From IMG/VR virus record IMGVR_UViG_3300030002_000106, positions 1-24,534 of that record: DNA of 24,534 nt. One strand, written 5' to 3'. Below are positions 4,199-18,393 of the stretch, in pieces; the stretch's first letter is position 1, and each line of letters opens with the position of its first letter. A model generated the notes under the pieces. It saw only the letters and a program-made list of their open reading frames with translations, did not search any database and was not told where the DNA came from. Origin of the DNA: a virus. Both the position numbers and the translations under genes were made by a program.

Positions 4199-4615
4199 AT
4201 GCAGCGCTATCACGACTCAGCCAAAGACCCATTGCCAATCCATTCGCCACAACACGACATCGAGCGCGCCAACCTCGACCGCCTGACTGCGGAGTTTCTG
4301 GCACGCGGCGGGAACGTCCAGCACGTCGGTCACCAGATGAGCAGCGCCCCGGCGACGTTCACCATCAACCCGGAGCGGTCGCCGGTTTATGCCCATCTGT
4401 TTGCGCCTGCGGCCCCTGTAGCAGTCCCGGAGACAGTGGTGTCAGTCGAGGTCGAGGATTCTTTCCAGGACGCCGATAAGCATGCGGCATTGATCATGGC
4501 CGATGCGGTCATGGGTAACTCGCCTAAGTGGATCGCCCGTAAGCACCACATGACAGAGAAGCACGTGCGTCAGGTTTCGCGCGATTACCACATCACTTTC
4601 CACACTCAACGGTAG
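4199..4615 (+). CDS. Hypothetical early protein with C-terminal HTH-like segment
   Basis: A 138-residue protein. The N-terminal half is low in recognisable features. The C-terminal stretch at about 103-134 (MGNSPKWIARKHHMTEKHVRQVSRDYHI, in two halves around TEKH) looks like a helix-turn-helix: a helix, a short turn and a recognition-type helix. That suggests DNA binding, but no family is recognised. It starts 2 bases after the preceding stop and is followed by an AGGA site and the next gene 8 bases later. Confidence 0.75.
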   Translation: MQRYHDSAKDPLPIHSPQHDIERANLDRLTAEFLARGGNVQHVGHQMSSAPATFTINPERSPVYAHLFAPAAPVAVPETVVSVEVEDSFQDADKHAALIMADAVMGNSPKWIARKHHMTEKHVRQVSRDYHITFHTQR

Positions 4616-4623
4616 GACGCCCT

Positions 4624-4845
4624 ATGGCCAAGATAACCATCACCTTGGAAGACCGCCGCGAAGGCAACGGCAAGCCATCGGTAGCCGTCGATATGACAGG
4701 TGTACCGACTACCCACTTGGGGACACCTCACCAGACCGAAGCAGTGCGCATGTTCAACAAGCTGTTCGACCTGGTCGCCAGTGAAAAGATGTTGGGTGCC
4801 ATTCCTGCGTGTCGCTGGCAACCCGGCACTACAACCCGCCACTAA
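4624..4845 (+). CDS. Small hypothetical early protein (73 aa) ending at a hammerhead ribozyme
   Basis: The product begins MAKITITLEDRREGNGKPSVAV, a beta-strand-rich N-terminus, and has a central helix (AVRMFNKLFDLVASEKM). The start has AGGA at about 4613-4616. The TAA stop (4843-4845) is the first part of a 68-base repeat, and the ribozyme begins at the next base. The function is unknown. Confidence 0.75.
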   Translation: MAKITITLEDRREGNGKPSVAVDMTGVPTTHLGTPHQTEAVRMFNKLFDLVASEKMLGAIPACRWQPGTTTRH

Positions 4846-4910
4846 GCGAAACCGCCCCGGTCATCCGGGACGGTCTGCCAGGCGTGGTTGCCTGGTACTG
4901 ATGAGCAGCC
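4846..4910 (+). ncRNA. Type II hammerhead ribozyme, copy 1
   Basis: All conserved core positions are present. GAAA is at 4848-4851 and CUGAUGA at 4898-4904. Stem II (open end) is G4905-C4847 and C4906-G4846. Stem III pairs 4851-4860 with 4865-4874 (A15.1-U16.1 closing pair, one C-A mismatch at 4855/4870) around loop TCAT. The cleavage triplet GUC ends at C4875, so cleavage is expected between 4875 and 4876. Stem I pairs 4876-4883 with 4890-4897 without mismatch (one G-U) around loop GTGGTT. The trailing AGCC (4907-4910) could pair with GGTT of loop I as the tertiary contact. It sits between the stop of the 73-aa gene and the start region of the Cys-rich protein. Self-cleavage is inferred from the fold, not measured. 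Confidence 0.94.
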
Positions 4911-4931
4911 GAGGGATAAATGGAGAAAATC

Positions 4932-5129
4932 ATGAGCGAGCAACGAGCGCCATATCCACGGTCAGCAAACAATGCTGACCAGATGAACTTGCCCGAAGGC
5001 AAGACCTGCGGAGATTGCGTGTTTTGCAACCGCTGTACGTTGATGTTCGGTCACATCCCCGCAGATGAATCATGCGACTGGAGCCCTTCACGCTTTCGTG
5101 AGGCCGTGCCAGCCGCCGTAATTGCGTAA
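4932..5129 (+). CDS. Small Cys-rich, probably metal-binding phage protein
   Basis: A 65-residue protein with C26-x2-C29-x2-C32-x2-C35 and a later C48 in SCDWSPSRF. The CDWxPSRF ending after a Cys cluster is a pattern I associate with small unknown phage proteins. A zinc or iron-sulphur site is likely but unproven. Start 4932 is preferred over the in-frame ATG at 4920 because GGAGA (4922-4926) is well spaced for 4932. It is the first gene after hammerhead copy 1 and would be translated from the 3' cleavage product. It is one of two genes bracketed by the ribozymes. Confidence 0.78.
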   Translation: MSEQRAPYPRSANNADQMNLPEGKTCGDCVFCNRCTLMFGHIPADESCDWSPSRFREAVPAAVIA

Positions 5130-5175
5130 CCCTAAACACAATACCTGTATCACCCGAACCCTGAGACCTGACGAT

Positions 5176-5847
5176 ATGGACCACAACAAAGCCCTAGATA
5201 AAATCAAGAAGCTGCTGCGCCTGGCAGCCAGCGATAACCCGCACGAAGCTGCCACTGCAATGCGCCAGGCCCGTGCTTTGATGGAAAAGTACCGCCTGGA
5301 AGAGTCAGATATTCAGCTCTCCGAGGTGTTCGAATGTGCCGCCCGCAGTGGCTCAAAGATGACCCCGCCGCAATGGGAAGCCAACCTGGTTGGCGCCGTG
5401 ACCCAGGCCTACGCCTGCAAAGTCCTGTTCATGGCGGGTATCGGTGAATGGCGCTTTATCGGCGAAATGGCCGAGCTGGCCAGCTACACCATGGCCTTGT
5501 TACTGCGCCAAGTCCGCCAGTCTCGCCGCGACTTCATTGGCACCCAGTTAAAGCGCTGTAAGCCTGCGACCAAGACCAAGCGCGCCGACGTGTTCTGTGG
5601 CGCCTGGGTATCGGCAGTGCGCCGACAGGTCATGGCGTTTGCTGGCAACGATGAGCCTTCACCGGCAACAGCGGCGTACATGCTTAAGCACCATGCCGAG
5701 ACGGAAAAGCTTGATTGCCGCGACCGCAACGCCAGCAAGGGCAACGGTGTGCGCTCCCTGACTGACGCTATGCACGGGGTTCTCGCGGCTGGCGATGTCC
5801 GTCTGAACCACGGTGTGAATGGCCAGGAACAACTTGCCCTGCATTAA
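5176..5847 (+). CDS. DUF2786 family protein
   Basis: A 223-residue protein. Residues about 5-45 (ALDKIKKLLRLAASDNPHEAATAMRQARALMEKYRL, in two runs around SDNP) match the DUF2786 N-terminal signature. A middle segment (about 75-130) resembles the part of the family preceding a GAW-type helix (FCGAWVSAVRRQV). The C-terminus RNASKGNGVRSLTDA is basic and Gly-rich. Family function is not established. The start at 5176 is chosen because the DUF2786 domain begins right after it; an upstream in-frame TTG would overlap the preceding gene and lacks support. Its TAA stop is the first part of the second ribozyme repeat. Confidence 0.87.
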   Translation: MDHNKALDKIKKLLRLAASDNPHEAATAMRQARALMEKYRLEESDIQLSEVFECAARSGSKMTPPQWEANLVGAVTQAYACKVLFMAGIGEWRFIGEMAELASYTMALLLRQVRQSRRDFIGTQLKRCKPATKTKRADVFCGAWVSAVRRQVMAFAGNDEPSPATAAYMLKHHAETEKLDCRDRNASKGNGVRSLTDAMHGVLAAGDVRLNHGVNGQEQLALH

Positions 5848-5912
5848 GCGAAACCTCCCCGGTACGCTGGGGCGGTCTGCCGGACGTGGTTGTCCGGTAC
5901 TGATGAGCAGCC
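5848..5912 (+). ncRNA. Type II hammerhead ribozyme, copy 2
   Basis: The architecture and length are the same as copy 1. GAAA is at 5850-5853 and CUGAUGA at 5900-5906; stem II is G5907-C5849 and C5908-G5848. Stem III pairs 5853-5862 with 5867-5876 (one T-C mismatch 5856/5873, one G-U) around loop TACG. Cleavage is predicted between C5877 and 5878. Stem I pairs 5878-5885 with 5892-5899 around the same GTGGTT loop. Relative to copy 1, two stem I pairs changed by double substitution (A-U to G-C; G-C to A-U), and the mismatched stem III pair of copy 1 is restored as C-G. AGCC (5909-5912) is conserved. It starts right after the DUF2786 stop, and the next gene starts 4 bases past its end. Confidence 0.95.
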
Positions 5913-5916
5913 ACCC

Positions 5917-6195
5917 ATGACAGACGAAACACCCAAACAGCGCAAAACCCGGCTGGCACGCGAGCGTAAACGTGCCCAGCGTAAGCGCGACAGCGACAAG
6001 CGCCTGACCATGGGTGCCAGCAAGCTCAAGATGGAAGTCTATAGCGGCACCAAAAACGAGCTGGAACAGATCCGCGCCGCCGGTAAGTTCGACGAAACAG
6101 ACCATGCGCTCACGATGACCATTCATGGTGTCGCCGCACTGTCCCGAACCGACCCAGCAGCGTTCCAGGTACTGATCAAAGGAGTAAGGCAGTGA
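5917..6195 (+). CDS. Small basic hypothetical protein downstream of ribozyme
   Basis: A 92-residue protein whose N-terminal third is dominated by Lys/Arg (KQRKTRLARERKRAQRKRD). It then has KLKMEVYSGTKNELEQIRAAGKF, a strand-then-helix pattern reminiscent of short ribbon-helix-helix proteins, and ends with an Ala-rich helix. Nucleic-acid binding is likely from composition. The ATG at 5917 follows the ribozyme 3' strand, where GATGAG in the ribozyme core is the only purine-rich run near the start, so translation and the ribozyme fold may compete. The stop overlaps the gemA start by 4 bases. Confidence 0.78.
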   Translation: MTDETPKQRKTRLARERKRAQRKRDSDKRLTMGASKLKMEVYSGTKNELEQIRAAGKFDETDHALTMTIHGVAALSRTDPAAFQVLIKGVRQ

Positions 6196-6608
6196 CTACA
6201 CGTAACCTGCAATTGAGCAAGATCCACATCGCCAAGAAGGACCTTGGGCTGGATGACGAAACCTACCGCGCCTTGTTGGGCCGCGTGGCGGGTGTGCGTT
6301 CGGCTAAAGACCTGACTCCACGCCAGACCGGCGCGGTACTGGCCGAGTTCGCCCGGTTGGGTTGGGAGTCTTCGCCTGCTAAAAAGCCAGGCCGTAAAGC
6401 GCCTGTTGCGGCACCAGATAGGGAAAAACTGGTGGGCAAGATCGAGGCCTTTCTCGCCGAGGCCAAGCGCTCCTGGGCGTATGCTGACGGGATGGCCTTG
6501 CGCATGTTCAAGGTCGAGCGCGTGGAATGGCTCGACCCTGGCCAACTGCAAAAAATGGTTGCAGCGCTGACCTACGACGCCCGCCGACATGGGAGACCTG
6601 AGCGATGA
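6192..6608 (+). CDS. gemA: GemA/gp16 family regulatory protein (DUF1018)
   Basis: A 138-residue protein beginning MTTRNLQLSKIHIAKKDLGLDDETYRALLGRV, the classic GemA/gp16 N-terminus, followed by SAKDLTPRQ and a C-terminal half with SWAYADGMALRMFKVERVEWLDPGQLQKMVAAL. In Mu, GemA modulates host gene expression and DNA topology. The start is GTG at 6192, supported by AAAGGAG at about 6178-6184, and overlaps the previous stop (GTGA). The stop is coupled to mor. GemA next to mor is the expected Mu-like order at the end of the early region. Confidence 0.93.
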   Translation: MTTRNLQLSKIHIAKKDLGLDDETYRALLGRVAGVRSAKDLTPRQTGAVLAEFARLGWESSPAKKPGRKAPVAAPDREKLVGKIEAFLAEAKRSWAYADGMALRMFKVERVEWLDPGQLQKMVAALTYDARRHGRPER

Positions 6609-7042
6609 ATGAAGAATTGTTCCCAGATGACATTGATCAACTGGACGCCAAGAAGGTATTGGCGAATATGCAGGACCCTACGGTTATATCCCGCTGGGAA
6701 GGCTCTTTGCGGGAAATGGTGGAGATTGCCGAGGCCAAGCTTCTGGTTGAGATCAAGCCTGGGGTGGAAGCCGCCGAGCTGGCGCGACATGTCGTCTTTG
6801 CAATTTGTTCGGTGATGGGCGGCAAGGTGGTGTACTTGCCACGGGGAGACGCACTCAAGCGGGCTTTACGGGATGCCAAGATCTATCGGGACTGGAAGGA
6901 TAACAATACCCCGATCCCTGACCTGGTCAGCAAGTACGACCTTGCGAACCAGACAATTTATGACATCATTCGCCGACAACGGGCGTTGCACCGCAAGAAT
7001 GAGCCCGATCTATTTGGTTATGATGAAGGGACGATGCATTGA
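6605..7042 (+). CDS. mor: Mor-family transcriptional activator
   Basis: A 145-residue protein of the Mor/C family that activates middle or late phage promoters. The family hallmarks are the GGKVVYLPRGDALKRALRD segment at about 72-90, the dimerisation region before it, and a C-terminal helix-turn-helix (PIPDLVSKYDLANQTIYDIIRRQ, split by ANQT). The start follows GGGAGA (about 6592-6596) and overlaps the gemA stop. No second Mor/C-type gene is visible in the window, so this protein may control the late operons directly. The downstream secreted-protein gene overlaps its stop (TGATG). Confidence 0.94.
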   Translation: MNEELFPDDIDQLDAKKVLANMQDPTVISRWEGSLREMVEIAEAKLLVEIKPGVEAAELARHVVFAICSVMGGKVVYLPRGDALKRALRDAKIYRDWKDNNTPIPDLVSKYDLANQTIYDIIRRQRALHRKNEPDLFGYDEGTMH

Positions 7043-8317: not shown

Positions 8318-8956
8318 ATGCGCCGCTCTCGTTCTCTTCTATATATAGCTGCGGCATGCTTGGGCGTGCTGGTTGTCATGGCTGCAAGCCCTCCGGTTAA
8401 GGCAGAGATCCCGGACCAAGCGGAGCGCTACCGTCGCGACCTAACCCGTATCGCCCAGGCCGAGTGGGGCTTGGATGCTCCGGTGTCCACCTTCGCCGCA
8501 CAGATCCACCAGGAAAGCCGCTGGAAGTTCGACGCGAAATCGCCGGTCGGTGCGCAAGGCTTGGGCCAGGTGATGCCCTCGACCGCCACCTGGCTCGCCG
8601 AGTTGTTTCCCAAGGCTCTCGGCAAGATAGAGCCGTATAACCCGGTTTGGTCCATGCAGGCGCTTGTCAGTTATGACCGCTGGCTGGCGAACCGCATCCA
8701 GGCGCGTGGCCCCTGCGAACAAGGGGCGCTGATCCTTTCCGCCTATAACGGCGGTTTGGGCTGGGTGATCAAAGACCGCAAGTTGGCATCGGCTAAGGGT
8801 GCCGATCCGCTGACCTGGTTCAACTCCGTCGAGCGGTTCAATAACGGCCGCTCGGCTGCTGCGTTCAAGGAAAACCGTCAATACCCGCGCCTGATCCTGT
8901 TGCGCTGGGAAGCCCTCTACGTTGCTGATGGCTGGGGCCAAGGGGTGTGCCAATGA
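8318..8956 (+). CDS. Endolysin, lytic transglycosylase (SLT) domain
   Basis: Cleaves the peptidoglycan glycan strands in the periplasm. The 212-residue protein has an N-terminal hydrophobic signal or SAR-like segment (LLYIAAACLGVLVVMAAS, about 7-24). This is followed by an SLT fold with the catalytic Glu at residue 66 in IHQESRW, the GAQGLGQVMPSTA motif at about 78-90 and the ILSAYNGGLGWV motif at about 136-148. These are the three classic SLT motifs. It lies between the holin-like gene and Rz, with overlapping ATGA to the latter. A true cleavable signal (PPVKAE) is possible instead of SAR anchoring. Confidence 0.94.
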   Translation: MRRSRSLLYIAAACLGVLVVMAASPPVKAEIPDQAERYRRDLTRIAQAEWGLDAPVSTFAAQIHQESRWKFDAKSPVGAQGLGQVMPSTATWLAELFPKALGKIEPYNPVWSMQALVSYDRWLANRIQARGPCEQGALILSAYNGGLGWVIKDRKLASAKGADPLTWFNSVERFNNGRSAAAFKENRQYPRLILLRWEALYVADGWGQGVCQ

Positions 8957-9597
8957 ATGGCTTGCTCGACCTACTCAGGCCCGCCGCCTGGTACGTGGGC
9001 ATCATCGCTGCCGTGGTGTTCGGCCTGCACCTTAACTGGCAGGACGGCTATGACCAGGGTTACGCCAAGGCCTTGGGCGAAGGGGAAACAGCTATTGCCA
9101 AGCTGCGCCTAGAACATTCCCAGGAACAGCAACGTATCGCCGATGCAACAGCTAAAGCCGCCAAACAGGCGGTTGAGGATCTGCGCGTCCAGCAGGATCG
9201 GGGCGATCTGCTCGCCACCCAGCTCGCCGACGCAAAGGATTCGTTACGCAACAACACCGACCAACTCAAGGGAGAGATTGCCCGTGTCACGACCCTGTAT
9301 CGCCGCACCCTCGAATCGGCGCCTGAGCCTTTGCCTGTTGGCATGTTCACTGTTGGCTTTGTCCGCGTGTGGAATAAAGCCAACGGAATCGGCACCGCAG
9401 TGCCTGCCCAGCAAGCCCGACAAGCCGCCAGCGGAATTGCTACGTCGCCCGATGGAGCCGGAGCCGCTGACAGCCTCGACTCAGGTGTCACCCAGCCGCT
9501 TGTCCTCGCCAACCAGATTCGCAACGGCGAGCTGCACAGTTCCTGCCGGGCTTCGCTCAACCGCCTGATCGATTGGACACTTAATGGAAGTAACTGA
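8953..9597 (+). CDS. Rz: Rz-like inner-membrane spanin
   Basis: A 214-residue protein with one N-terminal membrane segment (AAWYVGIIAAVVFGLHLNW, about 11-29) followed by a long coiled-coil helix (about 45-120, rich in Glu, Gln, Lys, Ala), then a linker and a C-terminal domain with two Cys-poor helices. This is the i-spanin layout: anchored in the inner membrane, spanning the periplasm, and joining Rz1 to disrupt the outer membrane. The start at 8953 overlaps the endolysin stop (ATGA). The Rz1 gene is embedded in another frame of its 3' half. Confidence 0.85.
   Translation: MNGLLDLLRPAAWYVGIIAAVVFGLHLNWQDGYDQGYAKALGEGETAIAKLRLEHSQEQQRIADATAKAAKQAVEDLRVQQDRGDLLATQLADAKDSLRNNTDQLKGEIARVTTLYRRTLESAPEPLPVGMFTVGFVRVWNKANGIGTAVPAQQARQAASGIATSPDGAGAADSLDSGVTQPLVLANQIRNGELHSSCRASLNRLIDWTLNGSN
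9284..9568 (+). CDS. Rz1: Rz1-like outer-membrane lipoprotein spanin, embedded in Rz
   Basis: A reading frame wholly inside Rz encodes a signal with RR, a hydrophobic run and lipobox: NRRLSLCLLACSLLALSAC, with the lipidated Cys at residue 29. The mature part is short and Pro-rich (KPDKPPAELLRRPMEPEP). These are hallmark Rz1 traits. GTG at 9284 is chosen as start because GGGAGA (about 9270-9275) lies at a good distance; TTG at 9278 or a downstream CTG are alternatives. The protein would partner Rz in the spanin complex. Confidence 0.75.
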   Translation: MSRPCIAAPSNRRLSLCLLACSLLALSACGIKPTESAPQCLPSKPDKPPAELLRRPMEPEPLTASTQVSPSRLSSPTRFATASCTVPAGLRSTA

Positions 9598-9805: not shown

Positions 9806-10110
9806 CGACGATTGAAATGCCTGCGTGGCAACTGGTGAGTATTGCCGTAACCATCCTCGGTGCCTTCGCTGGACTTGTGAAGGTTATGGTCATGCAAATG
9901 GAGCGCCGACTGGATCAGCGCTTTGCAATAACAGACAAGGACAGTGAGCGCCTGCGCACGCTGGAAATATCCTTTGAACGGCTGCGGGGTGACATGCCCG
10001 TGCACTACGTGCGCCGGGAAGATTACGTGCGCGGCCAAACCGTGATCGAGGCCAAGCTTGATGCGTTGGCACTCAAGCTAGAAACCGTTCAATTAAAAGG
10101 ACTGAAGTAA
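9802..10110 (+). CDS. gp25-like membrane protein (DUF2730)
   Basis: A 102-residue protein with one N-terminal membrane helix (LVSIAVTILGAFAGLVKVMVM, about residues 9-29) followed by a long charged helix with coiled-coil character. The topology and the place between the TraR-like and gp26-like genes match Mu gp25/DUF2730. The start at 9802 overlaps the preceding stop (ATGA). The function in the phage cycle is unknown. Confidence 0.8.
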   Translation: MTTIEMPAWQLVSIAVTILGAFAGLVKVMVMQMERRLDQRFAITDKDSERLRTLEISFERLRGDMPVHYVRREDYVRGQTVIEAKLDALALKLETVQLKGLK

Positions 10111-10418
10111 TGAACATCGACGCCGCCAAAACGCGCCGGGAATCCCTGCGCTGGTACATCATCAAGACCCTGGACACCTCGCGCCCCGTAGATCCTCATG
10201 AGGCTATCGTGTTGTCCACCATCCAGGGCATCTATCCCGATGCCACCACCATGGAGCTACGCCGCGAACTCGACTACCTGGCCGACCGTAGTCTGGTGAC
10301 GCTGGACAAAAAGCCCAACGGCGTGTGGATCTGCGGCCTGACCCACTGCGGGGTCGACATTGCGGAATACACCATCGCCTGCAATCCAGGCGTTGCCCGA
10401 CCAGAAAAGTACTGGTGA
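10110..10418 (+). CDS. Mu gp26-like protein, winged-helix fold
   Basis: A 102-residue protein: RRESLRWYIIKTLDTSRP then HEAIVLSTIQGIYPDATTMELRRELDYLADRSLVTL (helix, helix, strand pattern around DATT), then a strand-like GVWICGLTHCGVDIAEYT. It resembles a winged helix and sits in the usual place of gp26, immediately before the terminase small subunit. The start overlaps the gp25-like stop (TAATG). It probably belongs to the packaging module; the exact role is unknown. Confidence 0.8.
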   Translation: MNIDAAKTRRESLRWYIIKTLDTSRPVDPHEAIVLSTIQGIYPDATTMELRRELDYLADRSLVTLDKKPNGVWICGLTHCGVDIAEYTIACNPGVARPEKYW

Positions 10419-10422
10419 CCCC

Positions 10423-10935
10423 ATGCCCCCACGCAGCAAGGTTGCCAGTCTGCCCAAGCCGGTCAAGACCTGGCTCGACAAGGCCCTAGCCGAAAACAAC
10501 TTCAGCGATTACGAAGCCCTGGCCAACGAACTGTCGAGCCAGGGTTTTTCGATCAGCAAGTCGGCGCTACATCGCTATGGCCAGGACTTCGAATCCAAAC
10601 TCTCGGCCTTGAAGATGGCCAGCGAGCAGGCCCGTGCCGTGGTGGCTGCTGCTCCGGATGAAGAAGGCGCGGTCAACGAAGCGCTGATGCGTCTTGTCCA
10701 GGAACACCTGTTCAAACTGCTGATGAGCGATGGCGACCAGATGGACTTGCCGAAGGTCGCCAAAGCTGTGGCCGAGTTGGGTAAGGCCTCGGTTGTGCAG
10801 AAGAAATGGCAGGCGGAGTGGAAGGAGAAGGTCGAAACGGCGGCGGCGCGCGTTGATAAGATCGCCAAGAAAGGAGGCCTGACACAGGCGACCTCCGATG
10901 AAATCCGGCGCGAGATCCTGGGGATGGCATCGTGA
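10423..10935 (+). CDS. Terminase small subunit-like protein (gp27, DUF3486)
   Basis: A 170-residue protein of the DUF3486 family: N-terminal SKVASLPKPVKTWLDKALAENNFSDYEALANEL, then GFSISKSALHRYGQDFE, the helix-turn-helix-like signature of the family, and a long helical C-terminal half with QKKWQAEWKEKVE. In Mu-like phages this gene product recognises phage DNA ends for headful packaging. The ATG at 10423 is the first start after the gp26 stop. The stop overlaps the GTG of the large subunit. Confidence 0.9.
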   Translation: MPPRSKVASLPKPVKTWLDKALAENNFSDYEALANELSSQGFSISKSALHRYGQDFESKLSALKMASEQARAVVAAAPDEEGAVNEALMRLVQEHLFKLLMSDGDQMDLPKVAKAVAELGKASVVQKKWQAEWKEKVETAAARVDKIAKKGGLTQATSDEIRREILGMAS

Positions 10936-12485
10936 GTCTGCCCCTCGTCCTGGACAGCACCGCCACGTTGCTTGCCCCAGCAGTCTTACTCGACTATCAG
11001 AAGGAGTGGATCGGTATACGCGCCCCGCTCAAGGTTGGCGAGAAATCCAGGCGTATCGGTCTCACATGGGCCGAGGCGGCAGACAACGTTCTGGTAGCCG
11101 CGTCCGAAAAATCGGCGGGCGGTCAAACTGTCTATTACTTGGGCTACAACCAGGACATGACCGTGGAATATATCCAGGCCTGCGCCATGTGGGCGCGGGC
11201 CTACAACTACGCGGCCGAGCAAATAGAAGAAGGCATTTGGCCCGATAGCGACCCCGACAAACACATCAAGACCTACACCATCGTGTTTCCCAGCGGCCAC
11301 CGCATCGTCGCGCTGACCAGCCGACCGTCCAACCTGCGGGGTCGTCAGGGCGTTGTCGTGATCGACGAAGCCGCGTTCCATGCGGACTTGGCCGAGCTGC
11401 TGAAAGCGGCCATGGCTCTGTTGATCTGGGGCGGTGAAGTCCATGTGATCAGCACCCACGACGGCACGGAGAACGCCTTTAACGACCTAGTCAACGAAAT
11501 CCGGGCTGGCAAGCGCAATGGCGAAGTGTTCCGCTGCACTTTCGGTGAAGCCGTTGCCGATGGTCTGTACAAGCGTGTCTGCCTTCGTAAAGGTATTGAG
11601 TACAGACTTGAGGATGAAATCGCCTGGGTGAATGGCGTTTACGGTTTCTACGGCGATGCAGCCGACGAGGAGCTGGACTGCGTACCATCCCAGGGTGGCG
11701 GTGCCTTCCTCAGCATGGCCCTGGTTGAGCAGCGCAGTAACCGTGACGTGCCGGTACTGCGCCTGGCATACCCGCAGGGTTACGAAACCATCGCCGAACA
11801 CTTGCGCCTGGCCGAGTCTCTGGAGTGGTGCGAAGAGCATTTGCTCCCGCTGCTTTCGGCGATTCCCCTGGACGTTCAGAGCTTCTATGGCATGGACTTC
11901 GGCCGCTCCGGCGACCTCTCGGTTTTCTGGCCGTTGCTCAAAGAACAGAACCTGCGCAAGCGCACGCCCTTTGTGGTCGAGCTGCGTAACGTCCCGTTCA
12001 AGCAACAACTTCAGATTAAGTTCTACATTATTCGTCGCTTACCCAACTTCCTCAAAGGCGCCGATGACGCCAGGGGTAACGGCTCGCAACTGTCAGAAGA
12101 CACTGCGGTCGAGTTCGGCTTCAACCGCATTGAGCGGGTGATGCTCACCGAGGGCTGGTATCGGGACAACATGCCACCGTTCAAGGCAGCCCTGGAAGAC
12201 GACACCTTCTACGACATCCCCGCCGACAAAGACGTGGTCAGTGACGTTCGGGCTTTCCGCATGGTCAAGGGCGTAGCCCGCATCCCTGAAAAACGGACCA
12301 ACGAAAAGGGCGAAAAAGCCGGACCCAAGCGCCACGGTGACGCAGGTATCGCCGCCGTCCTGGCCGACTACGCGTCCCGCCAGGACGTCGAGATCATCGA
12401 ATATCACCGAGTCCAGCCCGCATCCCAGCATGATCGCGAGATCCAGATCGGCGCCGGTTGGCGCTCCAAAAAAGGCATTTGGTAA
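10932..12485 (+). CDS. Terminase large subunit (gp28)
   Basis: A DNA-packaging ATPase and nuclease of 517 residues. The Walker A position is the degenerate form KSRRIGLTW (about 38-46) and Walker B is VVVIDEAAF (about 141-149, D145 E146), followed by a coupling motif HVISTHDGT. The nuclease domain starts with YGMDFGRSGDLS, in which D322 is the expected metal ligand, and ends with the acidic KRHGDAGIAAVLAD motif near 468-481. The start is GTG overlapping the small-subunit stop. Length and order are as in Mu. Confidence 0.95.
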   Translation: MSLPLVLDSTATLLAPAVLLDYQKEWIGIRAPLKVGEKSRRIGLTWAEAADNVLVAASEKSAGGQTVYYLGYNQDMTVEYIQACAMWARAYNYAAEQIEEGIWPDSDPDKHIKTYTIVFPSGHRIVALTSRPSNLRGRQGVVVIDEAAFHADLAELLKAAMALLIWGGEVHVISTHDGTENAFNDLVNEIRAGKRNGEVFRCTFGEAVADGLYKRVCLRKGIEYRLEDEIAWVNGVYGFYGDAADEELDCVPSQGGGAFLSMALVEQRSNRDVPVLRLAYPQGYETIAEHLRLAESLEWCEEHLLPLLSAIPLDVQSFYGMDFGRSGDLSVFWPLLKEQNLRKRTPFVVELRNVPFKQQLQIKFYIIRRLPNFLKGADDARGNGSQLSEDTAVEFGFNRIERVMLTEGWYRDNMPPFKAALEDDTFYDIPADKDVVSDVRAFRMVKGVARIPEKRTNEKGEKAGPKRHGDAGIAAVLADYASRQDVEIIEYHRVQPASQHDREIQIGAGWRSKKGIW

Positions 12486-14041
12486 TGGCTGAATCCAAAA
12501 TCGTCGACCAGTACGGTCGCCCGATCCAGTACGACAAACTCACCGAAGAGCTGGCCGCTGCCCACACCACCGGCATACGCCAGGTTTGGCACCAGTCAGT
12601 GGCCAGCGGCCTTACGCCTGGTCGACTTGCATCCATCTTGCAGGCGGCCGCCGAAGGCACAGCCCATGACTACCTGACCCTCGCCGAGGAAATGGAAGAG
12701 CGGGACCTGCATTACGCTTCGGTATTAGGCACCCGCAAGCTGGCTATTGCGGGCTTGGCTATTCGTGTCGAAGCTGCCAGCGACGATGCCGAAGATGTGC
12801 GCCGTGCAGATCAACTCAAGGAAATAGTGGACTCTCCAGAGTTTGGCGAACTACAAGCCGACCTGACGGATGCCATGGGCAAGGGCTATGCCGTCTCAGA
12901 AATCATGTGGGACCGCAGTGGAAAGACCTGGAACCCGTCGCGCTTTGAGCCACGGGACCAGCGGTTTTTCCAGTTTGACCGAGAGACCGGCCGGGAGCTG
13001 CGACTCCTGGATGAAGCCGACATGCTCAATGGCGTCGCATTGGCCCCGTACAAGTTTATTGTCCACCTGCCTCGCATCCGTTCGGGCCTGCCGATCCGGG
13101 GCGGCCTGGCGCGCCTGGCAGCCGTTGGCTACATGTGCAAGGCCTGGACCTGGAAGGATTGGATGGGCTTTGCCGATATCTTCGGTATGCCCATGCGCGT
13201 GGGGCGATACGGCCCAGGTGCCAGCAAAGACGACATTAATACCTTGATGTCGGCGGTGGCCAACCTCGGCAGCGATGCGGCGGCGGTAATACCGGACAGC
13301 ATGAAGATCGACTTCACCCAAGCTGCGAACGTGGCCGGTGCGGGGGACTTCTTCAAGGGCTTGGCCGAGTGGTGGGATAAACAGGTCAGCAAAGCCGTGG
13401 TCGGCCAGACCATGTCCACCGACGACGGCTCCAGCCAGGCCCAGGCTACGATCCACAATGAAGTTCGCCTGGATCTGCTGCAAGCCGATGCGAAGGCCGA
13501 ATCCAATACGCTGAACCGCTACTTTGTGAGGCCTTGGTGCGATCTGAACTTTGCACCTGGTCGTCCGTATCCGCGTCTTATTCTTGATGTGCCAGAGCCA
13601 GAAAACACCAAGATCTTGATCGAGGCGCTCGAAAAGCTCGTGCCGCTGGGGTTGAAGGTCGAGCAGTCGGTAATCCGTGACAAGCTCAATATCCCGGCTC
13701 CAGCCAAGGGCGCCGAGCTGCTGGGCGGCCCGCCGCCCGTTGCCACTCCTGTTCTTGCACAGGCGATCAACAGCGAGCAATTGCCAGCCAAACCGGTGGT
13801 AATGCCAGACATCGTGGATAACCAGGTGCGGACGCTTGAGCGGACTGTGGGGGTCTATATGGATGACATGGTCGAGCAGATCAAGGAGCTGCTCGACACC
13901 GTCAGCAGCTTGGAAGAGTTCCGAGATCGGCTGATCGAAGCCTATCCAGCAATGACCACCAGCCAACTGGCGGATGCCATTGCCGATGGTCTGACCGCCG
14001 CCAGCCTGGCTGGCCGCGATGACATTCTGAGAGGCCTGTAG
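12485..14041 (+). CDS. Portal protein (gp29, DUF935)
   Basis: A 518-residue DUF935-family portal. Recognisable parts are the N-terminal RQVWHQSVASGLTPGRLASIL, the EMEERDLHYASVLGTRKLAI segment that is highly typical of the family, and VSEIMWDRSGKTW. WKDWMGFADIFGMPMRVGRY and VGQTMSTDDGSSQAQATIHNEVR follow. It forms the head-tail connector channel with the terminase during packaging. The ATG at 12485 overlaps the stop of the large terminase gene (TAATG). It is followed after 2 bases by gpF. Confidence 0.95.
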   Translation: MAESKIVDQYGRPIQYDKLTEELAAAHTTGIRQVWHQSVASGLTPGRLASILQAAAEGTAHDYLTLAEEMEERDLHYASVLGTRKLAIAGLAIRVEAASDDAEDVRRADQLKEIVDSPEFGELQADLTDAMGKGYAVSEIMWDRSGKTWNPSRFEPRDQRFFQFDRETGRELRLLDEADMLNGVALAPYKFIVHLPRIRSGLPIRGGLARLAAVGYMCKAWTWKDWMGFADIFGMPMRVGRYGPGASKDDINTLMSAVANLGSDAAAVIPDSMKIDFTQAANVAGAGDFFKGLAEWWDKQVSKAVVGQTMSTDDGSSQAQATIHNEVRLDLLQADAKAESNTLNRYFVRPWCDLNFAPGRPYPRLILDVPEPENTKILIEALEKLVPLGLKVEQSVIRDKLNIPAPAKGAELLGGPPPVATPVLAQAINSEQLPAKPVVMPDIVDNQVRTLERTVGVYMDDMVEQIKELLDTVSSLEEFRDRLIEAYPAMTTSQLADAIADGLTAASLAGRDDILRGL

Positions 14042-14043
14042 AC

Positions 14044-15246
14044 ATGGCAGTCTCACACGGCTCTCTACCATTCAAGGAACAGATCGAACACGACTATGCT
14101 TTCGTGGTGGCGGGTGCTGCGAAACGGGATCTGCTGACCGACCTGCGGGGTGCCGTAGAGAAGTCCATCGCCAGCGGCGCCACCCTGGAACAGTTCCGCA
14201 AAGACTTTGACCAGGTCGTCGGTAAACACGGGTGGCAGTACCAGGGCGAGCGCGGTTGGCGCACCAATGTCATCTGGGAAACCAACCTGCGCCAGTCTTA
14301 CAACGCTGGCCGCGAAGCTCAGATGGCCCACCCGGAGTTGCGCAAGCGCCGCCCCTACGCGGTTTACCGTCATGGCGACAGTGCGCACCCACGGCCTATG
14401 CACCTGTCCTGGAACGGCATCACGTTGCCGCTCGATGACCCTTGGTGGGCAACTCATACCCCGCAAAACGGTTGGGGCTGCAAGTGCAAAAAGTTCATGC
14501 TCTCGGCCAGGGACGTTGAGCGCCAAGGGCTGACGATTGGTCCAGCACCGGCCACTGAGTGGGAAGATCGGGTAATCGGCAAGAACAGCTCTGGTGGTCC
14601 ACGTACCGTGCGAGTGCCCAAGGGGATCGATCCAGGCTTTGAATATGCACCTGGTCAATCACGCTTGGCCAACTCCGTGCCCCAGCTGCGCACCCATGAT
14701 CTGATTCCAGCACCATCAGCAGCTCCGGCACCGACAACCGGTTTGCCCAACCGGCAACCAAGCGGACCTTTGCCGCAGCCTCGGCAGATCCCGGCAAAGC
14801 GTCTGCTCCCAGCCAAAGCCTCCACCCCTAAAGCGGTGACCCAGTTCCTGGGCGAGTTCGGCGCCACCGACGCCGAACCAGCGGTGTTCCGAGACGTGAC
14901 GGGTGATGCCCTGGTCATCGGGCGGGAGATGTTCAGCGATGCCAAAACCGGTGCAATAGCGTTGGCCCAACAGGTCAAGGCTCGCGAGTTGCCTCTCTTA
15001 GCTGAAGCCATTAAGGCTCCTGATGAGATCTGGGTGCGCTTGGAATGGCAGCCAGACCAGGGCAAAGCGGTGTTGCGCCGTCGATACCTGGCACACGTCC
15101 AGGTCAAGGGAAAGGCAGATCCCGCTGTTGCTGTATTCGACCAGGGCGCAGATGGCTGGACTGGCGTCACCGGGTTTGTGGATGACAGCGAGCAGTACCT
15201 CGAGGCATTGCGCCTAGGCGTCCTGCTTTACCGACGTACCGAATAG
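14044..15246 (+). CDS. F: Minor head protein gpF fused to a PBECR2-like nuclease domain
   Basis: A 400-residue protein. Residues about 1-175 form the phage head morphogenesis domain, seen in WETNLRQSYNAGREAQM, HPRPMHLSWNGITLPLDDPWWA and the closing PQNGWGCKCKKF at about 140-150. After a Pro/Thr/Ser-rich linker (about 215-262) comes a second domain (about 265-400) ending EQYLEALRLGVLLYRR. This matches the phage Barnase-EndoU-ColicinE5/D-RelE-like nuclease family PBECR2 found at the C-terminus of gpF proteins. The second domain may be injected with the DNA. The catalytic residues of this family are not firmly known to me. The start is 2 bases after the portal stop. Confidence 0.88.
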   Translation: MAVSHGSLPFKEQIEHDYAFVVAGAAKRDLLTDLRGAVEKSIASGATLEQFRKDFDQVVGKHGWQYQGERGWRTNVIWETNLRQSYNAGREAQMAHPELRKRRPYAVYRHGDSAHPRPMHLSWNGITLPLDDPWWATHTPQNGWGCKCKKFMLSARDVERQGLTIGPAPATEWEDRVIGKNSSGGPRTVRVPKGIDPGFEYAPGQSRLANSVPQLRTHDLIPAPSAAPAPTTGLPNRQPSGPLPQPRQIPAKRLLPAKASTPKAVTQFLGEFGATDAEPAVFRDVTGDALVIGREMFSDAKTGAIALAQQVKARELPLLAEAIKAPDEIWVRLEWQPDQGKAVLRRRYLAHVQVKGKADPAVAVFDQGADGWTGVTGFVDDSEQYLEALRLGVLLYRRTE

Positions 15247-15256
15247 GGAGGACGAC

Positions 15257-15820
15257 ATGGCCGGTTCAATGCTTGAGGTTTCCGTCGATACAAGTCCAGT
15301 CGGCAAGGCCCTCGATGATCTGTTTGAGCGACTGGGCGACCTGACAACGCCGCTCAATGACATTGCGGAATACCTGCACCAATCCACTGATGACCGCTTT
15401 CGCCAGCAGGTCGCTCCAGACGGTTCGCCCTGGGCTCCACTTGCCCCCTCAACCCTGGCACGTAAGAAGGGAGGTCGCATCCTGCGCGCCAAGGGTACGC
15501 TACAGGACACATTGCGCCACAACGTCAGTCGCAATGAGCTGTCTTTCGGCACTGACCGACCATACGGTGCCATTCACCAGCTCGGTGGTAAGGTCGAGCA
15601 TGCGGCCAGGTCACAGCAGGTCTACTTCCGTCAGGGTAAAGATGGATCGGTGGGCAACCGCTTTGTGAAGAAGAGCAAATCCAACTTTGCGCAGTGGGTT
15701 ACTCGTGGTGCGCATGACTCCGAGATCAAGGCAAGACCCTACCTAGGCCTATCATCAGACGACGATATCGAGATACTCACGATCATCCAGGACTACCTTA
15801 TGGAGCCAATAAAAGAGTAA
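15257..15820 (+). CDS. G: Virion morphogenesis protein gpG (tail completion)
   Basis: A 187-residue protein of the virion-morphogenesis family: DIAEYLHQSTDDRFRQQVAP, DGSPWAPLAPSTLARKKGG, ILRAKGTLQDTLRH, FGTDRPYGAIHQLGGKV and the C-terminal ARPYLGLSSDD. These are the consecutive family motifs. It is thought to complete the head-tail junction. The start has GGGAGGAC (about 15246-15253). It is the last gene of the operon before a 252-base gap. Confidence 0.93.
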   Translation: MAGSMLEVSVDTSPVGKALDDLFERLGDLTTPLNDIAEYLHQSTDDRFRQQVAPDGSPWAPLAPSTLARKKGGRILRAKGTLQDTLRHNVSRNELSFGTDRPYGAIHQLGGKVEHAARSQQVYFRQGKDGSVGNRFVKKSKSNFAQWVTRGAHDSEIKARPYLGLSSDDDIEILTIIQDYLMEPIKE

Positions 15821-16018
15821 CGGTGCAGAATCCCACAGGCGCGCTGATCTAGCCTTGCGGGTACATCCGCCGCGTGCGGGGTGGCTGAACAGCGTTAGAC
15901 CTGCGTTAGATTTAGTTGTAGCCCTATTCACTCCGTCTTCGCGAGATCCCTTCGGTCCACTCGCTGTGTATAGAATGGATTCACCGACTACCCCTTCGCC
16001 GCCTTCCCAAGGCGCAAA

Positions 16019-16041
16019 TTCTTAAACCCCGCTGATACTCA
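16019..16041 (+). promoter_or_regulatory. Putative late promoter/leader element, copy b (PI position)
   Basis: All 23 bases are identical to 7605-7627 and include AAACCCCGCTGATACTCA. It lies 31 bases before the protease/scaffold gene, the place of the late promoter PI in Mu. A CGCCTT-CCC-AAGGCG hairpin just upstream mirrors the terminator that precedes copy a. The promoter role is inferred. Confidence 0.6.
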
Positions 16042-16049
16042 CCAACTTC

Positions 16050-16069
16050 GCCAAGTCTCACAGACTGGC
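16050..16069 (+). promoter_or_regulatory. Leader hairpin abutting the gene I start
   Basis: GCC(A)AGTCT (16050-16058, one bulged A) pairs with AGACTGGC (16062-16069) around a CAC loop. The 3' arm overlaps the GGCGG run (16067-16071) just before the ATG at 16073, leaving no free Shine-Dalgarno. Possible translational control; structure only predicted by eye. Confidence 0.5.
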
Positions 16070-16072
16070 GGC

Positions 16073-17059
16073 ATGAAAACTCAACTCGCCGTTAACTCAG
16101 AAATCTACAGCTCCGTCGAGCTTTCCGATGGGAAAGCGCCCGAGTGGGTAGAACTTATTCCCGCCGGTCCCTCTGTCGTCGGCCGTGATGGCCGCGCATG
16201 GCTGTTCGACGATACAGCGCATCAGTTTGTGCAGACCAATTTCTCCAGCCGGGCAATCGATCTGCCTATCGATTGGGAGCATGCCACCCAGCGCCGTGCC
16301 CCCAAGGGGGAAGAAGCACCCGCAAGTGCTTGGATCAAACAGTTGGAAATCCGCGACGGCGCGTTATGGGGCCAGGTCGACTGGACGCCACGTGGCGGAC
16401 TCCAGGTTGAGGGCAAAGAGTACCGCTTCCTTTCCCCCGTCTTCGATTACGACGATGAGACCAAACGCATTGTCCGCATGGTCAGCGCAGCCCTCACCAA
16501 CATACCCAATCTCGTAATGACAGCACTCAACCAAGAGCAAATGGAGAACGTCCCTGTGAAACCCTCACCAGAGCTTTTAAAGCTGCTCGGTCTGCCTGAC
16601 ACGGCGACCGCTGAACAAGTCTTCACCGCCACCACCGCAAAACTCAATGCCACCAGCCAGGCGCTCAACAGCGAGGCGGGCAACCTGGAGCGGTTCGTGC
16701 CTCGCGCTGACTATAACGCGCTGGAATCCCGAGCATTGAATGCCGAGCAGGCCCTTACTACTCACAAAGCGGCCGAACATACCAAGGCAGTGGACGCGGT
16801 CATTACCCAGGCTACCCAAGCCGGGAAGATCACCCCGGCCACCGTCGACTACCACCGCGCCATGTGCCAGGACGAAGCCGGTCTGACGCGCTTCAAGGCT
16901 TTCGTCGATGCCGCACCAATCGTTGCGGACCCGACCAGCTTGGGTGAGCGCAAGCCCAAGGAAACCTCTACCGCCCTCAACTCCGAAGAGCAAGCCATGT
17001 GCGTGCAGTTTGGGCTTGATCCGGCCGAGTTCGCCAAAACCAAGCAGAGCGAGGTTTAA
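16073..17059 (+). CDS. I: Mu I-like prohead protease/scaffold
   Basis: A 328-residue protein. The N-terminal half (about 1-150) matches the Mu-like I protease: EWVELIPAGPSVVGRDGR, LPIDWEHATQRRAPKGEEAPASAWI (in two runs), GLQVEGKEYRFLSPVFDYD and ALTNIPNL. The C-terminal half is Ala/Glu/Thr-rich, helical and scaffold-like, as in Mu, where an in-frame internal start makes the scaffold Z. Candidate internal starts are ATG at about 16541 (MENVPVK) or a nearby codon, without proof. It processes and shapes the prohead. It is the first gene after the PI-like element. Confidence 0.92.
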   Translation: MKTQLAVNSEIYSSVELSDGKAPEWVELIPAGPSVVGRDGRAWLFDDTAHQFVQTNFSSRAIDLPIDWEHATQRRAPKGEEAPASAWIKQLEIRDGALWGQVDWTPRGGLQVEGKEYRFLSPVFDYDDETKRIVRMVSAALTNIPNLVMTALNQEQMENVPVKPSPELLKLLGLPDTATAEQVFTATTAKLNATSQALNSEAGNLERFVPRADYNALESRALNAEQALTTHKAAEHTKAVDAVITQATQAGKITPATVDYHRAMCQDEAGLTRFKAFVDAAPIVADPTSLGERKPKETSTALNSEEQAMCVQFGLDPAEFAKTKQSEV

Positions 17060-17062
17060 CCC

Positions 17063-17458
17063 GTGCCGCTGACTCAAGATCGCAATACGCCTATGAAGGA
17101 CACCGAAATCCTGGTGGTTCCTGTCACCGCTAACGTCCGCATCTTCGCGGGGTCTCTGGCTGTCGCTACCGCAACTGGCTTTGCTGCACCTGGTTCAACC
17201 GCTCTGGGCCTGTCCTACCTAGGCCGTTTCGAGGCATCAGTAGACAACCGAGGCGGCGCCGCTGGTGCTGCCCAAGCCGAGATCCGCCATGGCAAGGCGT
17301 TTCTCTGGGCCAACGACGGCACCATCACCCAGGCGCACCTGTTCAAGCCAGCCTATATCGTCGATGACGAAACCGTAGCTGCTGCTGACGCAGGCGGCAC
17401 CCGATCCGCCGCTGGACGCATCGTTGGTATTGATACCAACGGCGTGTGGGTTGAGTAA
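17063..17458 (+). CDS. Capsid decoration/cement-like protein (DUF2190-like)
   Basis: A 131-residue, beta-rich protein with Ala/Gly repeats: ALGLSYLGRFEASVDNRGGAAGAAQAEI, KAFLWANDGT and the ending GRIVGIDTNGVWVE. Small proteins of this type sit between the protease and the major head protein and coat the capsid. GTG at 17063 is used as start because GAGG lies about 9 bases upstream; ATG at 17093 is an alternative. The family assignment is tentative. Confidence 0.75.
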   Translation: MPLTQDRNTPMKDTEILVVPVTANVRIFAGSLAVATATGFAAPGSTALGLSYLGRFEASVDNRGGAAGAAQAEIRHGKAFLWANDGTITQAHLFKPAYIVDDETVAAADAGGTRSAAGRIVGIDTNGVWVE

Positions 17459-17487
17459 CTCCCTCTATATATAGGAGCGCATTGCGC

Positions 17488-18393
17488 ATGTTGGTTAACA
17501 AGTCCTCTATTCAGGCAGCTTTCGTTGCTCTGAAAACCCTTTTCAATAACGCCTTTGGGTCTGCACCCAGCTCCTGGGAAAAGATCGCCATGAAGGTGCC
17601 AAGCACCACTGGCAGCAACATGTATGCCTGGCTATCGGCGTTTCCGAAGATGCGCCGTTGGGTTGGCGCGAAGCACGTTAAAAACCTCAAAGCGTTCAGC
17701 TACACCGTGGAAAACGAAGACTTTGAAGCGACTGTCGAAGTTGACCGTAACCACATCGAAGACGATCAGTTGGGCATCTACGCGCCCCAAGCGCAGATGG
17801 CAGGCTTCTCGGCCAAGCAGTTGCCGGACGAAATCGTATACGAGCTGGTGAACGGTGCCTTTGGCAACCTGTGCTACGACGGTCAATATTTCTTCGATAC
17901 TGACCATATCGTCGGCAATGGAAGCGTCAGCAACAAGGGCACGGCGGCACTTTCCATCGCAACCCAGGCAGCCGCTAAGGCAAGTTACGGCGCAGCACGT
18001 ACGGCCATGGGCAAGTTCAAGGACGATGATGGCCGCCCATTGGATGTGCGCCCAACAATCCTCCTGGTCGGTCCTGGTCTGGAAGACACCGCCAAGGCTT
18101 TGTTGACTGCTGATCGTCTGGAAGACGGCAAGGTCAACCTTTACAAGGGCACTGCCGAGCTGGTTGTCTCGGGTCGCATCACCTCCGACACGGCCTGGTT
18201 CCTCTTAGACACCAGCAAGCCCGTTCGCCCCTTCATCTATCAGGAGCGTAAAGCGCCGGTCTTTGTCCAGCAGACCGATCCCGAAGCTGATGATGTCTTC
18301 AGCCGCAAAAAATTCAAGTTCGGGGCAGAAGCGCGGGCAGCTGGTGGTTATGGCTTCTGGCAACTGGCTTTCGGCTCCACTGGCGAAGCGTAA
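17488..18393 (+). CDS. T: Major head protein gpT
   Basis: The main capsid subunit, 301 residues. It starts MLVNKSSIQAAFVALKTLFNNAF and contains MKVPSTTGSNMYAWLSAFPKMRRWVG (two runs), LKAFSYTVENEDFEATVEVDRN, YDGQYFFDTDH, RPTILLVGP and the C-terminal RAAGGYGFWQLAFGS. This is the full set of Mu gpT family motifs. The ATG at 17488 is preferred over TTG at 17482 because AGGAG (17473-17477) is better spaced. It is expressed with protease I and the decoration protein. Confidence 0.96.
   Translation: MLVNKSSIQAAFVALKTLFNNAFGSAPSSWEKIAMKVPSTTGSNMYAWLSAFPKMRRWVGAKHVKNLKAFSYTVENEDFEATVEVDRNHIEDDQLGIYAPQAQMAGFSAKQLPDEIVYELVNGAFGNLCYDGQYFFDTDHIVGNGSVSNKGTAALSIATQAAAKASYGAARTAMGKFKDDDGRPLDVRPTILLVGPGLEDTAKALLTADRLEDGKVNLYKGTAELVVSGRITSDTAWFLLDTSKPVRPFIYQERKAPVFVQQTDPEADDVFSRKKFKFGAEARAAGGYGFWQLAFGSTGEA

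Follow-up and report, generated by a model that had tools for sequence, protein, structure and literature searches.

The 24,534-base IMG/VR virus record analysed here (the window) carries two ribozymes, HHR1 and HHR2, both within the early operon of a Mu-like phage of Pseudomonas. Judged by sequence and predicted fold, the segment 5845-5912 encodes a type II hammerhead ribozyme, in line with the preliminary description of this DNA, which had placed a second hammerhead there, and with an Rfam match to RF02276. HHR2 is probably the second member of an orthologous pair that acts in cis as mRNA punctuation of the early operon. The identity of the ribozyme, the conservation of its core and fold, and its position are established at the level of sequence.

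Two hammerheads in the early region

Exactly two Rfam matches were found in the window with cmscan, both to RF02276 (Hammerhead_II), and no other Rfam family matched anywhere in it. HHR1 is matched at 4844-4914 with 69.1 bits (E 1e-12) and HHR2 at 5846-5916 with 63.2 bits (E 3.6e-11), the gathering score being 37; the HHR2 alignment covers the full length of the model (1-66). With a purpose-built covariance model (R1) HHR2 scores 92.8 bits, E-values from such models being rough.

The layout of the window is that of D3112/DMS3-type (Casadabanvirus) transposable phages, as observed by comparison with annotated relatives. The early region runs in the order transposase, AAA ATPase, DUF3164, several small ORFs, HHR1, the phrog_10154 ORF, the DUF2786/DUF7168 gene, HHR2, the phrog_4093 gene, gemA and mor. 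Pseudomonas genomes carry prophages with close DUF2786 homologues, and both ribozymes were present in all four relevant prophage loci checked. The features of the region are listed below.

4624-4845, + strand: ORF upstream of HHR1; its stop codon TAA (4843-4845) overlaps the HHR1 5' end
4844-4911, + strand: HHR1, type II hammerhead ribozyme copy 1 (RF02276), predicted cleavage between 4875 and 4876
4876-5877, + strand: RNA of 1002 nt expected from cleavage at the two predicted sites
4932-5129, + strand: small ORF between the ribozymes, phrog_10154 (phrog E 7.6e-29), ATG at 4920 or 4932
5176-5847, + strand: DUF2786/DUF7168 gene, phrog_421 (Pfam E 5.5e-14 and 1.4e-21)
5846-5913, + strand: HHR2, type II hammerhead ribozyme copy 2 (RF02276, model R1)
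5853-5862 with 5867-5876, + strand: HHR2 stem III, loop UACG at 5863-5866 (sequence, folding, covariation)
5877/5878, + strand: predicted HHR2 cleavage site after C17 (GUC 5875-5877) from hammerhead geometry, 5'-OH expected at 5878
5878-5885 with 5892-5899, + strand: HHR2 stem I, loop I GUGGUU at 5886-5891; covariation at pairs 1.5-2.5 and 1.7-2.7 within the close family
5900-5906, + strand: HHR2 core strand CUGAUGA; core invariant save N7 in 82 distinct copies
5907-5908, + strand: 3' strand GC of HHR2 stem II, paired with 5848-5849 in the hammerhead fold
5909-5913, + strand: HHR2 3' tail AGCCA, predicted pseudoknot with UGGUU of loop I (the pseudoknot of PMC3088659; compensation in L019, L023 and L026)
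5917-6195, + strand: phrog_4093 gene (phrog E 3.8e-37)
6192-6608, + strand: gemA (GemA, PF06252; Pfam E 2.7e-28)
6605-7042, + strand: mor (PF08765; Pfam E 6.6e-21), next after gemA

HHR2 has the conserved core, namely GAAA (5850-5853) together with CUGAUGA and an NUH cleavage site, and it has the type II topology, with stems I and III closed by loops and stem II open (from the cmscan alignment and the covariation of stems I and III). The half containing stem III (5846-5877) folds with -14.6 kcal/mol. Stem II is only 2 bp long and invariant apart from two U-G pairs, and gives no covariation evidence. In the Rfam Hammerhead_II structure line positions 2-3 are paired with G10.1-C10.2, which produces a G-G pair; by the geometry of hammerheads (C11.1-G10.1, G11.2-C10.2) this stem II pairing would lie one position further along or back.

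The UGGU of loop I and the AGCC of the tail are complementary in nearly all copies, and in L019, L023 and L026 a loop GTAGTG occurs with a tail AGCTA, so that pairing is retained; none of the pseudoknot pairs is significant in the covariation test described below, which had too little power for them. In the flanking context, the minimum-energy fold of HHR2 is predicted to swap stem I for a longer helix between loop I and the tail: within 5886-5915, loop I and its flank (GUGGUUGU) can form 8 bp with GCAGCCAC around the tail, in competition with stem I. The folding of HHR2 may thus be inefficient or regulated.

The ribozymes lie tightly between genes. The Shine-Dalgarno GAGG of the phrog_10154 ORF directly adjoins the HHR1 tail. 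At HHR2, the stop codon TAA of the DUF2786 gene (5845-5847) overlaps the ribozyme 5' end, base 5845 belonging to the stop codon, and the phrog_4093 ATG follows 3 nt past the tail with no Shine-Dalgarno before it; the phrog_4093 3' end in turn overlaps the gemA start.

Conservation among relatives and history of the two copies

Relatives were gathered without a ribozyme bait (by the DUF2786 gene and by GemA) and with one (by a DNA pattern), and a covariance model built with the true hammerhead pairing was then used for searches; the virus records among the relatives may be fragments. The covariation alignment comprised 135 distinct sequences, with columns set by the conserved core and the boundary between stems III and I picked partly by pairing. 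The test was our own R-scape-style Python implementation with a FastTree tree and an APC-corrected G statistic. In its null, parsimony substitutions were re-placed at random columns on the same branches, and the cut-off was E<0.05.

Significant covariation was found for 8 of the 16 stem pairs and for 0 of the 1575 other column pairs, which answers the preliminary description's proposal of covariation statistics on related phages. For the close family (51 sequences) the test ranks pair 1.5-2.5, with E=0, and pair 1.7-2.7, with E=0.055, above all others, and these are the very stem I pairs singled out there. The GemA-derived alignment has 97.7% of its cells paired, falling to ~28-41% when the partner is slid by 1-3 columns, and contains 160 double-changed cells compared with 41 in shuffles. 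All 12 fixed core positions are invariant in the 82 distinct copies of this set, as are U16.1 and C17, and N7 is the sole core position that varies (U in 63, C in 17, A in 2). The stem III pair 15.5-16.5 is the only one that often tolerates mismatches. Related phages with a lost core or broken stems next to retained flanking genes, named beforehand as what would speak against a selected fold, were sought in 73 GemA loci and none was seen. Selection on the hammerhead fold is thus supported by the alignments. The minimum-energy z-scores of the two 68-mers are modest (-2.5 and -1.7) and were left out of the evidence.

The comparison of the two copies was recomputed without gaps (4843-4910 against 5845-5912) and reproduces the reported identity of 58/68, with exactly ten differences; shifting the register by up to 3 nt yields no more than 22 matches. 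In 68-mer numbering the differences are G12T, C20A, A21C, T22G, C24T, A28G, A38G, G40A, C49T and T51C, and the structural reading given to them holds throughout. Two stem I pairs are changed on both strands, from A-U to G-C (A38G with T51C) and from G-C to A-U (G40A with C49T). In stem III, A28G mends a C.A mismatch and G12T breaks a G-C pair, C24T turns G-C into G-U, and three changes (positions 20-22) fall on the four bases of the tetraloop. The core, loop I (GTGGTT) and the trailing AGCC are the same in both copies, and the cleavage implied at 5878 agrees with the site predicted by hammerhead geometry.

These changes had also been taken as evidence, from within one genome, that the fold is selected. 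Selection itself is borne out by the wider alignment, but the idea of fresh compensated changes in one genome is not: most of the closest relatives share the copy-1-type and the copy-2-type stem I, which makes the pair of compensated changes one old paralogue divergence. The independent evidence for selection, as read from sequence, is therefore the wider alignment and not the copy-1/copy-2 comparison. Among close relatives each copy groups with its counterparts, HHR1 with HHR1 and HHR2 with HHR2, in a poorly resolved tree. Mean identity between orthologues is 0.875 and 0.887, compared with 0.856 for the two copies of the same genome and 0.828 for different copies across genomes. A recent duplication of the ribozyme within the genome was rejected, the copies being position-specific orthologues in close relatives. 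The gene right after HHR1 varies among relatives (DUF2786 itself, phrog_10154, or another small gene), and that after HHR2 is phrog_4093. In one relative (L173) the ribozymes at 4489 and 5655 group together (support 96), unlike other close pairs; gene conversion between them is possible, to judge from this grouping.

A type II hammerhead lies at most 1.7 kb upstream of gemA in all 73 GemA loci for which 1.5 kb or more of upstream sequence was available, one copy in 42 and two in 31, and in 0/73 was one found downstream of gemA in the stretch examined; these loci come from the best 80 of 551 matches, and the statement thus covers the clade nearest the window. Conversely, GemA is present in 42 of the 50 virus records retrieved by the hammerhead pattern alone. 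Among 13 named transposable phages, D3112, DMS3, JBD24, LPB1, LESphi4, RcapMu and Vibrio martha 12B12 have one hammerhead each, and none was found in Mu, VW-6B, Klebsiella Kp4866-3, Mannheimia 3927AP2, Rhizobium RR1-B and BalMu-1, so the ribozyme is not essential to the gemA-mor layout. The DMS3 hammerhead lies at 8950-9021 of its record. The order stop codon, ribozyme, start codon is seen in most of 237 contexts, with the upstream stop codon overlapping the ribozyme 5' end in most of them and a start codon at most 70 nt past the ribozyme in 226.

Dense arrays also occur. A 57-kb virus contig without GemA (L243 / L068, IMGVR_UViG_3300017605_000570) has 24 type II hammerheads in 7.6 kb (9932-17520, minus strand); the stretches between ribozymes mostly contain about one small ORF, with its stop touching the next ribozyme, and an AGGTG Shine-Dalgarno follows many of the ribozymes. 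From its sequence, the array looks like an operon punctuated gene by gene. Two further arrays, with 9 matches in 6.1 kb (L045, IMGVR_UViG_3300046664_000025, 6146 bp) and 8 in ~7 kb (L073, IMGVR_UViG_2974780444_000001), have a different stem II and tail (GGC...GCCAGCC). The actinophages Sentinel (Streptomyces phage, MT701597.1, 44569-44617) and Salutena (NC_054657.1, 45437-45480) have short stretches that match the ribozyme half made up of stem I and core, and these overlap annotated ribosome-binding sites.

Proposed role and alternative readings

In the proposed mechanism, the RNA would fold upon transcription of the early operon and cleave after C17, between 4875 and 4876 and between 5877 and 5878. 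The polycistronic message would thereby be split in three: the upstream early mRNA, the 1002-nt mRNA carrying the small ORF and the DUF2786 gene, and the phrog_4093-gemA-mor mRNA. Each new 3' end would keep the 10-position stem III hairpin with a 2',3'-cyclic phosphate, and each new 5' end a 5'-OH with the flush 8-bp stem I hairpin. From general bacterial RNA biology, ends of this kind would be expected to slow 3' exonucleases and 5'-end-sensing RNase E, and both types should hinder exonucleases and 5'-end-dependent decay here, so the stability and expression of each part could differ. Cleavage in vivo, end protection and separate regulation are what we infer from these features. The stop codon that overlaps the ribozyme and the nearby start codon give the layout of a gene separator, and the array of 24 hammerheads lends the punctuation reading striking support. 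Around HHR2 the + strand lacks terminator-like sites, and promoter-like sites are not in excess. Stem III was considered as an intrinsic terminator and rejected, as it has no T run and terminator-like sites in the region occur solely on the - strand, at shuffle level.

The RNA might instead mainly control translation of phrog_4093-gemA, the pseudoknot holding the start codon and tail and cleavage being the switch, which we consider unlikely. The ATG lies 9-11 nt past G10.1 in 56 of 58 phrog_4093 members, a Shine-Dalgarno four-mer precedes it in 0/58 as against 74/88 other genes, and the overlap of phrog_4093 with gemA would fit as well; but an ordinary Shine-Dalgarno does follow HHR1, as it does most other hammerheads. 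The tight AUG spacing suggested the core strand CUGAUGAG itself as a Shine-Dalgarno. Its anti-Shine-Dalgarno duplex energy (mean -2.2 kcal/mol) equals that of random positions, which makes the core an unconvincing ribosome site. Nor is the spacing a general class, since nearly all cases belong to the phrog_4093 family and it is thus a trait of one lineage, and the core AUG (CUG-AUG-A) was rejected as an upstream ORF, its frame and N7 differing among relatives. Because the missing Shine-Dalgarno is conserved in phrog_4093, we entertain, as a similarly doubtful idea, that the HHR2 3' half (stem I, the loop I/tail pseudoknot and the AUG) is a Shine-Dalgarno-independent initiation element for phrog_4093-gemA-mor, with self-cleavage setting when it is usable; if true, one RNA would be first a ribozyme and then a translation switch for the phage middle-gene activator. 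In D3112 (orf17; L158, 3068-3185) and DMS3 (DMS3-17; L242, 9022-9136) the annotated start of gene 17 is ~115 nt too late: a reading frame 45 codons long or more begins, as in phrog_4093, at an ATG immediately past the ribozyme (AGCCACCC-ATG).

On the model of retrozymes and circular satellite RNAs, the 1002-nt RNA might be excised and then circularised by RtcB or reverse ribozyme ligation, a reading that would suit the 5'-OH and cyclic phosphate ends chemically and the same-strand pair found ~0.75-1.2 kb apart in most of the closest relatives. It is made improbable by the single ribozyme of 42 of the 73 GemA relatives (best 80 of 551 matches) and of D3112, DMS3, JBD24, LPB1, LESphi4 and RcapMu, by the varying gene content between the copies, and by the fact that circular or spliced products of clustered prophage hammerheads were sought and none found (PMC3088659). 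Still less probable is a hammerhead-like element that no longer cleaves and is kept for protein binding, pausing or attenuation. Stable stems I and III would serve it, but mere binding or stem function would not predict an invariant core with a free N7, as found in the 82 distinct copies. Finally, hairpins are common in GC-rich DNA, and yet a resemblance due to chance or to coding constraint has next to no probability: the Rfam E of ~1e-11 and the loss of pairing on sliding by 1-3 columns speak against it, the covariation result already refutes it, and coding is excluded because upstream genes end at the ribozyme 5' end and orthologue lengths differ by single bases. Punctuation of the early message remains the reading that we favour.

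Comparison with known systems

A 2011 paper (Perreault et al., PMC3088659) described type II hammerheads together with their pseudoknot and the way they cluster around prophage genes. Cleavage in vitro was shown there for type II and for clustered prophage hammerheads, and in E. coli for one Agrobacterium triple. Its authors suggested that transcripts are processed to mRNAs the length of an operon or a gene, and they saw no circles. Among bacterial hammerhead and twister ribozymes, the strongest gene associations are with Mu-like phage genes, for a reason stated as unknown (Eckert et al. 2023, PMC10085705). The RNA type and its association with Mu-like phages are thus already published and not new. 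We found no dedicated paper on hammerheads in Mu-like, D3112-type or transposable phages or with gemA in a search that covered literature outside subscription.

HHR2 shares with type II RF02276 (PMC3088659) the permuted fold, the core and the two-base-pair stem II, with a loop I/3' tail pseudoknot predicted as well, and occurs, like that family, in bacteria and prophages; it shows no structural difference and is an ordinary high-scoring member. In the clustered prophage hammerheads of Azorhizobium, Agrobacterium and Clostridium scindens (PMC3088659, Figure 3) several ribozymes on one strand flank short gene blocks. HHR1 and HHR2 likewise flank 4932-5847, as do the pairs in most close relatives, whereas the block here consists of DUF2786 and a variable small ORF in a D3112-like early region. 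The phage group is that of the Mu-like association (PMC10085705), and what is spelled out here beyond that statement is the fixed place upstream of gemA and the duplicated form.

For the Mu-like association, PMC10085705 states that it is an open question why phages retain hammerhead ribozymes. The fixed place after a stop codon upstream of gemA-mor (73/73, best 80 of 551 matches), together with the presence of just one copy in DMS3 and in D3112, makes the question testable with one point mutation, and the pair offers two position-specific paralogues to compare, with a Shine-Dalgarno after copy 1 and none after copy 2. A counterpart already annotated in GenBank, in Pseudomonas phage LESphi4 (OQ594957.1), is an RF02276 hammerhead at the orthologous site, directly after the upstream gene and before phrog_4093-gemA-mor, as is HHR2; unlike the window, LESphi4 has one copy and no DUF2786 block.
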